Positions 4,572 through 35,441 of a stretch of 64,000 bases of DNA are shown here, piece after piece. Within the stretch, counting starts at the first letter, position 1, and every line of letters starts with the position of its first letter. The DNA is from Haloterrigena turkmenica DSM 5511. Lineage in GTDB: Archaea; Halobacteriota; Halobacteria; Halobacteriales; Natrialbaceae. The stretch covers positions 2,666,001 through 2,730,000 of the forward strand of contig NC_013743.1 in NCBI RefSeq assembly GCF_000025325.1, read 5' to 3'. The notes under the pieces were generated by a model. The model was not told where the DNA came from. It made no database searches and worked only from the letters and a program-made list of their open reading frames with translations. The translations under genes and the position numbers were made by a program.

Positions 4572-4937
4572 ATGGTCCTCGAACAGGGTACTGTAGTCAT
4601 GGCTACCGTCGAAACTATTCTTTCGTCGATTTTCAGCACCGTCCCTGAACTCCATTCCGGACAACTCGGATTGCTATCGGGTGTTCTCGTCGGCCTCCTC
4701 TATTGGCACGGGCTCCGTCGGCCTTCGCTCGCTCTCCTCACTGCGTTCTATCTGCTGGCGCTCGGTATCGTGCCTGCGTCCGCGAGAGGGCTTTTCGTGG
4801 TTCAATCCCAACCGTGGTACTTCTGTTCGCTCTTGATCATCACCTCGCTCGGTGCGATTAGCGTCCGTATCGTTTGGACTCGAATATCGTACTCGAATCA
4901 GCCTCAGCTGTCGGAAGTCGGACAACGGGATTTCTAA
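4572..4937 (+). CDS. Small membrane protein, unknown
   Basis: A 121-residue product with three hydrophobic segments (about residues 30-50, 52-75 and 82-105) and a short polar C-tail. Codon use is less GC-rich than in neighbouring genes (for example ATT, TCT and CTC mixed), which suggests a weakly expressed or recently acquired gene. I do not recognise a family. An in-frame ATG at 4599 would remove nine residues and is an equally plausible start. It stands alone between the membrane glycosyltransferase and the oppositely oriented fttA. Confidence 0.5.
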   Translation: MVLEQGTVVMATVETILSSIFSTVPELHSGQLGLLSGVLVGLLYWHGLRRPSLALLTAFYLLALGIVPASARGLFVVQSQPWYFCSLLIITSLGAISVRIVWTRISYSNQPQLSEVGQRDF

Positions 4938-5047
4938 TCGGCTTTATCCCCGTCCGTACGGATGTGGCGTTTGCCTCGAAAGGTACGTCAGAATTCGACT
5001 CTCCGGATTCATAGTCCCAGGCGGACTAAAAGGGCTCGTTGAGGGAT

Positions 5048-6982
5048 TTACAAGAACCTGAAGGTCTCGAGGTTCTTCGGCGCGAAGGTACGCATGTCGT
5101 AGTTGTGGTACAGCGCCGAGGAGAGGTCCTGCGTCGACCGCTCGTCGCCGTGGACACAGAGGACTTTCTCGGGGCGCGGGTTCATCGTCTTGACGAAGTT
5201 CTCGAGGCCGGCGCGGTCGGCGTGGCCGGAGAAGCCGTCGACGGTTTCGACGTCGACGTTCAGATCGAGAGTGCCGCGACCGTTGTTCCCGCCCATGGCG
5301 CCGACCTCGCTGGTCGGAATCTCGTCCCAGCCGTTCTGGATACGCCGTCCAAGGGTTCCCTGTGCCTGGTAGCCGACGAAGACCAGCGTCGAGTCCGGAT
5401 CGGGGCCGATGTGGGACAGCCACGACATGATCGGACCGCCGGTGACCATCCCGGACGTCGAGAGGATGATACAGGGCTCGCCGTCGGCGACGTCCTGGCG
5501 CTCCTCCTCGCCGCCGTCGATGTGGTTGAACTCGTCGGCGAGGAAGGGGTTCTCGTCGTCGTGGAAGATGCGATCCCGGAGGTCGTCCCGGAGGTACTCG
5601 GGGTAGGTGGTGTGGATGGCTGTCGCCTCCCAGATCATCCCGTCTAGGTGGACTGGCATCGAGGGAATGTCCCCGTTGCGCATCGCCTCCTCCAGAACGA
5701 GCATGATCTCTTGGGATCGCCCGACGGCGAACGCCGGAATGAGCACCTTGCCGCCCTCGTCGTAGGTGTCGTTGATGATCTCCTTGAGGTTTCGCTCGGA
5801 GTCCTCCTGGTCGGTCTGGTAGTCGTTGCGACCGCCGTAGGTCGACTCCATCACCAGCGTCTCGACGCGCGGGAAGTCGTTGACCGCGCCGTTGAACAGC
5901 CGGGTGTCCTCGTAGTGAATGTCGCCGGAGAACGCGACGTTGTAGAGGCCGTCGCCGATGTGGAAGTGCGAGACGGCCGAGCCGAGGATGTGACCGGCGT
6001 TGTGGAAGGTGAGTTTGACGTCCGGCGCGATGTCCGTGACGTCGCCGTACTCGAGCGGGATGCAGTGTTTGATCGCCTCGCGGACCTGTTCGCTCTCATA
6101 CGGTGGTGCGCGTCCCTCCTTGGCGGCGACGTCGAGGTAGTCCAGCGTCAGCAGGCCCATCAGATCACGAGTGGGCTCGGTGCAGTAGATCGGTCCGTCG
6201 TAGCCGTACTTAAACAGCAGCGGGATCAGCGCGGAGTGGTCGAGGTGGGCGTGGGTGAGGACGACGGCGTCGATCGTCTGCGGACCGGCGCCGAGCGCCT
6301 CGGGCGCGTGGAGGTAGGGCACTTCGCCCTCGGCGCCGGGTTTGTCGCCGCAGTCGATGAGGATCCGGGTCTCGGGCGTCGAGAGGATGAAGGACGCTCG
6401 ACCGACCTCACGACAGCATCCCAGCGTCGTGATGCGGACGTACTCGTCGTCGGACATCTCCTCGCGGTGGATCTGTCGACCGACCTTCTCGAGAATGTCC
6501 CGTCGCTCGTCGCGTTCCTGCTTGAGGAAGCTACGGACGTTCGAAACCGTCGAGGACTCGATCGGCGGCGTGCGGACGACTTCGGGCGTCCAGCCGACGT
6601 TTTTGGTGATTTCGCGGAGCGTCGAGCCGTGGCGGCCGATGACCATGCCCGGCTTTTCGGCCTCGATGACGACCTCGCCGGTGTCAGCGTGGAAGTCCAG
6701 GTCCGTGACGCCGGCCTCTTCGGGGATGACGCTCATGATCTCCTCGCGGGCCTCTTCGGGTCGCGAGAGAACGCTCGGGTCGGGGCGGACGGTGATTCGC
6801 TTGCGAAGTTTGCTCGCGAGTTGCCGAATGAGGTCGCCCTGTTGGGCGAACTTCTTCGGATCGCGCGTATAGACCACCACTTCGGGGCCTTCGTATTTCA
6901 CCGAGGAGACCGAGATATCGCTCGGTAACTCGCTCGTGATCTCTGCTTTCAGATCGTCGAGTTGCTGCTCTACAGTACTCAT
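5048..6982 (-). CDS. fttA: FttA/aCPSF1: KH-domain metallo-beta-lactamase-beta-CASP ribonuclease, transcription termination factor
   Basis: Archaeal homologue of the CPSF73 endonuclease; family members cut nascent RNA and terminate transcription. The 644-residue protein has an N-terminal KH pair (residues 1-130, with the GMVIGRHGS loop near 112-120), then a metallo-beta-lactamase domain with THAHLDHS (243-250) and SGDIHYED, a beta-CASP insertion (ESTYGGR, then the VGRSQE region), and the late metal ligands in DGFSGHADRAG and CVHGDE. All zinc-binding motifs are intact, so it should be catalytically active. The start is the ATG at 6982; the open frame extends upstream but encodes Arg/His-rich sequence unlike the family. 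It stands alone, with a 336-bp region before the divergent gene at 7319. Confidence 0.95.
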   Translation of the reverse strand: MSTVEQQLDDLKAEITSELPSDISVSSVKYEGPEVVVYTRDPKKFAQQGDLIRQLASKLRKRITVRPDPSVLSRPEEAREEIMSVIPEEAGVTDLDFHADTGEVVIEAEKPGMVIGRHGSTLREITKNVGWTPEVVRTPPIESSTVSNVRSFLKQERDERRDILEKVGRQIHREEMSDDEYVRITTLGCCREVGRASFILSTPETRILIDCGDKPGAEGEVPYLHAPEALGAGPQTIDAVVLTHAHLDHSALIPLLFKYGYDGPIYCTEPTRDLMGLLTLDYLDVAAKEGRAPPYESEQVREAIKHCIPLEYGDVTDIAPDVKLTFHNAGHILGSAVSHFHIGDGLYNVAFSGDIHYEDTRLFNGAVNDFPRVETLVMESTYGGRNDYQTDQEDSERNLKEIINDTYDEGGKVLIPAFAVGRSQEIMLVLEEAMRNGDIPSMPVHLDGMIWEATAIHTTYPEYLRDDLRDRIFHDDENPFLADEFNHIDGGEEERQDVADGEPCIILSTSGMVTGGPIMSWLSHIGPDPDSTLVFVGYQAQGTLGRRIQNGWDEIPTSEVGAMGGNNGRGTLDLNVDVETVDGFSGHADRAGLENFVKTMNPRPEKVLCVHGDERSTQDLSSALYHNYDMRTFAPKNLETFRFL

Positions 6983-33242: not shown

Positions 33243-33578
33243 TCGACGCCCTCGAGCGGCGAGCGACATCCCATAGCTCATCGAACCACCCCGTGGCATC
33301 CAGTCGCTCACCGACCGTACTCGATCCCGTCTCGCCGCTCGAACGGGCGTCTGTCGCGCGGTCGAGGTCCCGCTCGTCCTCACTGGCTGCCGGCTCATTC
33401 GATACTCCGATTCTTCCCGACTCGCACGCACGGATTTAGTACGACTGATCGTTTTCATCACGATCGTTCGAATGTCAACACCGTTGTCGGCAAATTGAAG
33501 GCCTCAGTTTCGGGAATTATTGATAGTAATTACATTTAACACTTATGACGTGATGGGGCCGCATGAGGGAGCACTGGA
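33243..33578. other. Intergenic region leading to the micro-ORF cluster
   Basis: No gene recognised. The last 80 bp become AT-rich, with the imperfect palindrome AATTA-N7-TAATT (33515-33531) and a TATA-like CATTTAACA (33533-33541), about 40 nt before the GTG at 33579. Confidence 0.45.
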
Positions 33579-33716
33579 GTGGGGCACTCAGATACGACCG
33601 ACGCGACCAGAGCTATCGATCTGGTCTTCGAGTGGCGGCGACTCTGTCACGCCTGCGGGGAGCGAAAGCGGTTCAACAGACTGATCTGTGACGACTGTCG
33701 CGAACGCTATCTTTGA
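33579..33716 (+). CDS. Micro zinc-ribbon protein 1 (45 aa)
   Basis: Translates to a 45-residue peptide with two CxxC pairs: CHACGERKRF at residues 24-33 and CDDC at 38-41, an almost complete minimal zinc ribbon (C-x2-C-x11-C-x2-C). An in-frame stop 12 bp upstream fixes the GTG at 33579 as start. The sequence is otherwise basic and unlike the acidic proteome. Its CxxCGERK block is shared with the opposite-strand ORF at 33824-33946. Its 3' 29 bp overlap the next micro-ORF in another frame. Not proven to be expressed. Confidence 0.55.
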   Translation: MGHSDTTDATRAIDLVFEWRRLCHACGERKRFNRLICDDCRERYL

Positions 33717-33804
33717 ACGAGAGCGTCCCGCCGTTTACGTCGAGGAGAATATCACAACGTGTGACTACTGCGGACACGGTGGCCCGCGGCACGCTGCCTG
33801 CTAG
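33688..33804 (+). CDS. Micro zinc-knuckle-like protein 2 (38 aa)
   Basis: A 38-residue peptide starting at GTG 33688 (in-frame stop six bases upstream), overlapping the previous micro-ORF by 29 bp. The first 23 residues form a short helix-like segment FERERPAVYVEENI; the C-terminus CDYCGHGGPRHAAC gives C-x2-C-x6-H-x2-C, the ligand set of a CCHC knuckle. The overlap and order suggest translational coupling with ORF 1. It is too short to be sure, but the ligand spacing is not expected by chance. Confidence 0.45.
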   Translation: MTTVANAIFERERPAVYVEENITTCDYCGHGGPRHAAC

Positions 33805-33823
33805 CGTCGTCGGTTCGATTTCC

Positions 33824-33946
33824 CTATAGACTCCCGTCCCCCATACTCCGGAGTTGTTCACAGTTAGGGCACCGAGCGGAGCCATCTATTTGAGCGAATT
33901 TCCGCTCCCCACATACAGAACAGCTACCATCAGGATACCGAACCAT
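33824..33946 (-). CDS. Micro zinc-ribbon protein 3 (40 aa), opposite strand
   Basis: Read on the minus strand from ATG 33946 (in-frame stop 12-15 bp upstream) a 40-residue peptide: CSVCGERKF at residues 9-17 and CPNC at 26-29, C-x2-C-x13-C-x2-C. The CxxCGERK(F) block is the same as in ORF 1 (CHACGERKRF), so the two look like paralogs on opposite strands. Codon use is more AT-rich than neighbours. It converges on the end of ORF 2 (19 bp between stops). Confidence 0.55.
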   Translation of the reverse strand: MVRYPDGSCSVCGERKFAQIDGSARCPNCEQLRSMGDGSL

Positions 33947-33960
33947 ACTGCCTTGTGATC

Positions 33961-34035
33961 AGAAGGACTGTATAAGTCTTCTGTTGACATCCTTGTCGCG
34001 CTGAAGCGCAAGGCTACCCACGTTGAGTGGGGTAG
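33961..34035. mobile_element. IS200/IS605 (IS1341-type) terminus-like hairpin run, probable relic
   Basis: Three successive hairpins: AGAAG-g-ACT/AGTCTTCT (33961-33982), CCTT-GTC-GCGC-TGAA-GCGC-AAGG (33991-34013) and CTACCCAC/GTGgGGTAG (34014-34035). The block TTGACATCC followed by a GCGC hairpin and a run of C residues is the pattern I know from the ends of haloarchaeal IS1341-type elements, where it overlaps the guide RNA of TnpB. No tnpB frame remains nearby, so this is a remnant or a MITE/PATE-like piece; 34036-34283 shows no recognisable gene. Confidence 0.45.
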
Positions 34036-34283: not shown

Positions 34284-35237
34284 TCAAACCAGTTTTCGGA
34301 GGAGTTTGTAGCCCGCGTCGCGAAGCGGATCCGGCAGGAATCGCGCGTAGACGCCGTACTGGGCCAGCGGCCCGACCGGATACCGCGCGGGCGGTTCGGG
34401 CGTCGTGGCGGACTCCAGGATCGCCGCGGCGACGTCTTCGGCGCTGGAGGCGAAGGGGCCCCCGTTGCCGCCGCCGATCAGTTGCATCTCGCTATAGATC
34501 TCGTACAGCGACTCGTAGGCGGGCGTCCGCTCCGATTCGGGCAGTTCCTCGTCGACGCGGTCGCTGAAGTTCGTGTCGACCGGGCCGGGCTCGATCACGG
34601 TGACGTCGATGCCGAACTCCTCGACTTCCGCGCGCAGGGAGTCGCTCATCGCCTCGAGGGCGTGTTTCGACCCCGAGTAGGCGCCCGAGCCGGGGAACGA
34701 GACCCGGCCGACAACGCTCGAGACGTTGATGATTCGGCCGGCGCCCTGGGCGCGCATGTGAGGGAGAGCGGCGCGAGTGAGCCGGTGAGGGCCGTAGACG
34801 TTGACGTCGAACTGGCGGTGGAGATCCGACGTCGCGACGTCCTCCATCGGTCCCATCTGGGCGTAGCCGGCGTTGTTGACGACGCAGTCGATCGCGCCGG
34901 CGACGTCGACGACCCGCTCGACTGCCCGCGCGACCTGATCGGGGTCGGTGACGTCCAGTGCGAACGTTGTACAGCCCGCATCCTCGAGGGCCGTGATGTC
35001 CTCGGGATCGCGCGCGGTCGCGAACACCTGCCAGTCTTCGCGCAAGAACGCGGCTGCAGTGGCGCGCCCGATGCCGGACGAACAGCCGGTGATCAGGACG
35101 GACTTCTTGCGGGTGTAACGGTCGTCCTCGTCGCCGACGGGTTCGCCGCCGTCCCGTGCCGTCTCTCGATCCTCCTCAACAACGGTGCCCTCCGGCCCGT
35201 CGTCGTCGGTTCCCTCGACGTCCTCAGCGGTGGCCAT
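34284..35237 (-). CDS. Short-chain dehydrogenase/reductase (SDR)
   Basis: A 317-residue classical SDR with an extra acidic N-terminal tail of about 45 residues. Motifs: TGCSSGIGRATAAAF (cofactor), NNAGYAQMG, the catalytic Ser in IINVSSVVG and YSGSKHA (Tyr-x3-Lys), then EPGPVDTNFSD. It probably reduces a ketone or sterol/retinol-like substrate; cofactor preference is not visible. Start ATG at 35237. It overlaps the neighbouring plus-strand gene's shadow frames only. The tail (last 20 residues, DPLRDAGYKLLRKLV) is amphipathic and may bind membranes. Confidence 0.9.
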   Translation of the reverse strand: MATAEDVEGTDDDGPEGTVVEEDRETARDGGEPVGDEDDRYTRKKSVLITGCSSGIGRATAAAFLREDWQVFATARDPEDITALEDAGCTTFALDVTDPDQVARAVERVVDVAGAIDCVVNNAGYAQMGPMEDVATSDLHRQFDVNVYGPHRLTRAALPHMRAQGAGRIINVSSVVGRVSFPGSGAYSGSKHALEAMSDSLRAEVEEFGIDVTVIEPGPVDTNFSDRVDEELPESERTPAYESLYEIYSEMQLIGGGNGGPFASSAEDVAAAILESATTPEPPARYPVGPLAQYGVYARFLPDPLRDAGYKLLRKLV

Positions 35238-35441
35238 ACGTGACCGGTTCGAGAGACGATACCTAAGTATCGACGGTTTGTCGCGCTGAACGGACTGTCC
35301 GGGCGCACCGAGAACTGACCGCCGCTGCGAGCGGCGGACGACGCCGTCCGGCCGCCGCTGAACGCCCGCACCGATCACCGATCCGGACGTTCACGGGAAC
35401 TGTCCGAGAGCTATTCGTTACCTTGTCACTATGTAACACAT

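Follow-up and report, generated by a model that had tools for sequence, protein, structure and literature searches.

Two tiny conserved genes, ORF1 and ORF3, lie in a 1,040-base intergenic gap on the chromosome of Haloterrigena turkmenica DSM 5511, and they are fresh examples of a class of very small zinc-finger proteins whose abundance in haloarchaea is already established. A third open frame beside them, ORF2, is judged not to be a gene. The explanation that we favour, with a probability of about 0.8, is that ORF1 and ORF3 are genuine genes of the CPxCG-related kind whose products would bind metal and act in trans as regulators or adaptors, and that ORF2 is a by-product of an insertion. The type strain has one chromosome and six plasmids (PMC3035258), and the window analysed here is a 64-kb stretch of the chromosome, within which the gap runs between a winged-helix gene and a dehydrogenase-like gene (Table 1). 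An earlier note, made from the letters of the window, had claimed three micro-genes at this place. The start codons and lengths that it gave and the 29-bp overlap of ORF1 with ORF2 were all verified, as were the in-frame stops, which lie shortly 5' of the ORF1 and ORF3 starts. The claim itself holds for ORF1 and ORF3, on their conservation, purifying selection and near-invariant Cys residues, but not for ORF2.

Table 1. The window and the features in and around the intergenic gap (positions are those of the window except in the first row)
Feature	Position	Strand	Remarks
Window	2,666,001-2,730,000		H. turkmenica DSM 5511 chromosome; 64 kb
Winged-helix gene, 91 aa	32967-33242	+	HTH_IclR above cut-off, HVO_A0261_N-like; upstream border of gap
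Putative ORF1 promoter/leader	33531..33576	+	TATA-like CATTTAACACT about 43 nt 5' of GTG; GAGG Shine-Dalgarno-like stretch before start
ORF1, predicted 45-aa zinc-finger microprotein gene	33579..33716	+	GTG start; CHAC-x10-CDDC
ORF2, open frame judged not to be a gene	33688..33804	+	insertion plus former 3' untranslated DNA
Private insertion, about 45 bp	33709..33753	+	gap in all five congeners (alignment); within last codons of ORF1
ORF3, predicted 40-aa zinc-finger microprotein gene	33824..33946	-	ATG start; CSVC-x13-CPNC
Putative ORF3 TATA box	33970..33979	-	ACTTATACAG; positioned for leaderless transcript from ATG
Short-chain dehydrogenase/reductase-like gene	34284-35378	-	named from sequence; other border of gap

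Conservation of ORF1 and ORF3

The pairing of CxxC motifs in so small a space is itself unusual. The 64 kb contain 316 ORFs that are 25-80 aa long, and the pattern C..C.{6,25}C..C occurs in ORF1 and ORF3 and in no others of these. Dinucleotide shuffles put the chance expectation at 0.067 such micro-ORFs per 64 kb, and when the 1040-bp intergenic stretch was shuffled 2000 times no shuffle contained two of them. The earlier argument that these Cys pairs are unlikely by chance thus stands for ORF1 and ORF3; ORF2 has no homologous frame in the genomes searched.

ORF1 has homologues in 22 of the 125 genomes of the family (E<1e-8), representing five genera and including Haloterrigena salina and species of Natrinema, Natronorubrum and Natronococcus, and when the search was widened to the order all 16 positive genomes proved to belong to the Natrialbaceae. 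Matches at E>1e-5 that fell within long frames (G035, G044, G061, G083) and a second match in G106 were discarded as spurious. The family signature, IDLxFEWxxLCH[AG]CGERKxFxxxICDDCRxRH, includes residues that are invariant across 21 sequences (D14, F17, E18, W19, C23, H24, C26, K30, F32, I36, C37 and C40); in one further homologue, from Natronorubrum sulfidifaciens, the third Cys is gone (ISEAC). Pairwise dN/dS values within Haloterrigena fall between 0.09 and 0.36. In five genomes the start codon keeps its place, four having GTG and one having ATG, and both the TATA-like element and the GAGG stretch are kept, on a consensus basis, in the alignment of the window with four congeners (G024, G025, G026 and G027). 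Outside Haloterrigena the N-terminus is longer in many homologues, for a total of 65-84 aa, so that the Haloterrigena protein is the short version; in Natronorubrum and Natronococcus (L075, L076, L077, at about 4870-5120) the extension reads M[AG]TG.G...W[VL]DP, which is missing in Haloterrigena. A separate type of small zinc-finger frame, C..CGE.V...RV[FY]G...CP.C, was seen within about 5 kb of ORF1 at one Natronococcus locus and in G027 (L078:3074-3289; L082:3105-3344).

ORF3 is far more widely distributed, with matches at E<=1e-3 in 110 of the 125 family genomes, that is, in almost all sampled Natrialbaceae; a profile of the family run against 392 genomes of the order gave 87 positives inside the Natrialbaceae and two outside. 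Its signature is M(V)RYPDGxCxxCGERxFxxxxGxxxCPNC, and 22 sequences show no variation in the four Cys or in P5, G13, R15 and N28. Values of dN/dS are 0.10-0.30 in most close pairs, distant pairs being near or at saturation of synonymous sites. Most members, in several genera, have a TATA-like element at a constant distance from the ATG, as is usual for haloarchaeal genes transcribed without a leader. H. turkmenica holds a second copy, 59% identical, at C1:1297506 (L099:5007-5138), which has no ORF1 partner, as well as a more distant family member (G000:C1:2369282-2369404).

Two of the checks that the earlier note had proposed, codon-level selection and homologous frames with kept Cys pairs, favour ORF1 and ORF3, and the second of them fails for ORF2. 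A chance origin for the whole trio, as random ORFs of non-coding sequence, is exceedingly improbable. Short frames are frequent in GC-rich haloarchaeal DNA, and ORF2 is indeed such a frame, but in ORF1 and ORF3 the frames, Cys residues and starts are kept, dN/dS is low, and several genera have homologues. For these two, comparison of the sequences refutes chance and indicates that each is a genuine conserved gene under purifying selection.

ORF2 and the private insertion

The Cys/His set ascribed to ORF2 (CDYC...HAAC) is present in the translation, but the proposal that it marks a third zinc-knuckle gene fails, because a search of 124 other genomes gave no homologous frame and the DNA is non-coding in the nearest relatives. 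There, the Cys-containing end of ORF2 falls in DNA past the ORF1 stop and the second Cys is absent (CDYR), and in two of three close relatives (G025, G026) the equivalent frame is broken by an in-frame stop. The middle and bulk of ORF2 are supplied by the private insertion of about 45 bp, which also swaps the final two residues of ORF1, the conserved NV, for L (RYNV to RYL) and joins the Cys motif of ORF2 to ORF1. ORF2 was ruled out as a gene on these grounds, the missing homologue, the frame not kept in relatives and the private insertion, and to judge from the alignment it is a by-product of that strain-specific event. No further copies of the insertion occur in the H. turkmenica genome. Short TATC repeats flank it.

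Ancestry and adjacency of the pair

The earlier note regarded ORF1 and ORF3 as paralogues, the products of duplication of one ancestral gene. They have in common a CxxCGERK-F core, and hhalign pairs them with an E of 1.7e-4 and a probability of 49%. BLASTP aligns eight residues, just CGERK and the flanking Cys, and when the non-Cys columns of ORF1 were permuted with the Cys columns fixed the score was equalled in 6% of trials (p about 0.06), so that paralogy is not established. Duplication is further opposed by the unequal spacing of the Cys pairs (x10 against x13), by N-terminal sequences that are unrelated, by unlike top Pfam hints (DZR_2 in the case of ORF1, assorted ribbons in that of ORF3) and by differing phylogenetic ranges, and on balance it seems unlikely. 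The common CGER-x-F may reflect shared descent or the ordinary look of a Cys knuckle.

Each of the six Haloterrigena genomes searched has the two genes side by side. The window, G024, G025 and G026 (H. salina) share one gene neighbourhood and a convergent order; G027 has the convergent order in a different neighbourhood, with a single base between the stop codons; and in H. alkaliphila (G023) they lie on a plasmid (NZ_CP084319.1), divergent, in yet another neighbourhood. The winged-helix gene is kept in G024-G026 and is absent beside the pair in G027 and G023. The arrangement that the earlier note described as head-to-tail/opposite-strand is thus real as adjacency, but it is confined to Haloterrigena and has no single geometry (five convergent, one divergent); because the H. 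alkaliphila pair is divergent, adjacency rather than orientation is the constant. No CPxCG micro-ORF was found beside ORF1 outside Haloterrigena.

One reading of this adjacency is that selection holds ORF1 and ORF3 together as a functional pair, such as a heterodimer, an activator and its antagonist or a cassette of the toxin/antitoxin type. The genus-wide linkage is consistent with this, as are the unrelated neighbours that surround the pair in G027 and on the H. alkaliphila plasmid, where it is also divergent. Against it, the search beyond Haloterrigena met no case of the two genes side by side, the relatives of ORF3 are far more widespread than those of ORF1, genes with only a few tens of bases between them need no selection to move as one, and convergent order with separate promoters is not typical of toxin/antitoxin operons. 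A functional pair is accordingly quite improbable, and we would give similarly little credence to its fuller form, a self-contained Haloterrigena cassette of two interacting zinc-finger microproteins kept across replicons and in both orientations through their mutual action. Since close linkage can persist without selection, the pairing is suggestive only. A viral or mobile origin was considered and rejected, there being no relatives of ORF1 or ORF3 in viral contigs, no Rfam match, no second occurrence of the cassette in the rest of the H. turkmenica genome and only a single copy of the insertion.

Class membership and proposed function

CPxCG-related proteins have been defined as having fewer than 100 residues and two Cys/His patterns 7-40 residues apart, with at least one of CPxCG, CxxCG and CPxCx (Tarasov et al., 2008). 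ORF1, at 45 aa, carries CHACG-CDDC with ten residues between the Cys pairs, not the eleven claimed earlier, and ORF3, at 40 aa, carries CSVCG-CPNC with thirteen, as claimed; ORF2 is no real coding frame with a paired motif. The haloarchaeal small zinc-finger kind named by the earlier note therefore fits the two genes, which resemble the CPxCG-related proteins (PMC2253796, PMC6562870, PMC11241148) in being small, single-domain, furnished with CxxCG and often unannotated. Outside the Cys knuckles, however, they constitute two distinct families, mostly limited to the Natrialbaceae. Neither reaches a Pfam or NCBIfam cut-off. The first half of the double zinc ribbon DZR_2 (PF18912) aligns with ORF1 at E 4e-4 over profile positions 2-31 of 56, but the score of 20.6 bits lies below the gathering threshold of 27 and ORF1 has one set of four Cys rather than two ribbons. 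HVO_2753 (NF041909) is likewise a haloarchaeal Cys-knuckle microprotein, with four motifs, unlike ORF1 and ORF3; its NCBIfam model matched three of the 22 ORF3-family members weakly (best E 6.6e-4) and is absent among the matches listed for ORF1 and ORF3 of the window. Sequence and fold searches gave no significant relatives in the PDB, and AlphaFold models of both proteins, of medium confidence (pLDDT 77-79), place a helix at or right after the second CxxC.

ORF1 and ORF3 would then be independently promoted genes for single-domain Cys4 microproteins, in each of which the two CxxC knuckles most likely hold a single metal ion, usually zinc. Each most likely works as a small trans-acting regulator or adaptor, with a nucleic acid or a protein as its partner. 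This role is favoured by the motif class together with data on Brz, on deletion mutants and on zinc content. The model is Brz (OE3104F), the bop regulator of Halobacterium salinarum and also a small one-domain zinc-finger protein, which is thought to act in this way in bop expression; its Cys/His motif is needed for bop expression, that is, for sustained bop transcript levels (Tarasov et al., 2008, PMC2253796). Among members of the same class in Haloferax volcanii, the C(P)XCG proteins, deletion produced phenotypes in 12 of 16 mutants (PMC6562870), and nine of 14 purified proteins contained zinc while five contained none (PMC11241148), so zinc binding is not to be taken for granted. The regulatory role of Brz is supported by mutants, whereas regulation by ORF1 and ORF3 is likely by analogy with this one characterised case. 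By its description Brz has a His in the second pattern where ORF1 and ORF3 are all-Cys, and it adjoins its target gene, whereas ORF1 and ORF3 have no constant neighbour except each other. Across 31 loci no constant functional neighbour was found, and as the flanking genes differ between species none is an obvious target, which speaks against a fixed local one.

The general picture of the class is unchanged by ORF1 and ORF3. It was stated in 2008 that annotation may overlook many CPxCG-type frames, and many unannotated members were predicted (Tarasov et al., 2008, PMC2253796), which makes the two genes less of a surprise. What they add to the haloarchaeal zinc-finger microproteome is two well-supported families and, in the H. 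alkaliphila plasmid copies, neither of which is covered by a listed gene, a concrete case of genes absent from an incomplete public gene table. The pairing is interesting yet genus-limited and remains suggestive; as a feature of Haloterrigena only, it offers a small test system for asking whether such microproteins work in pairs.
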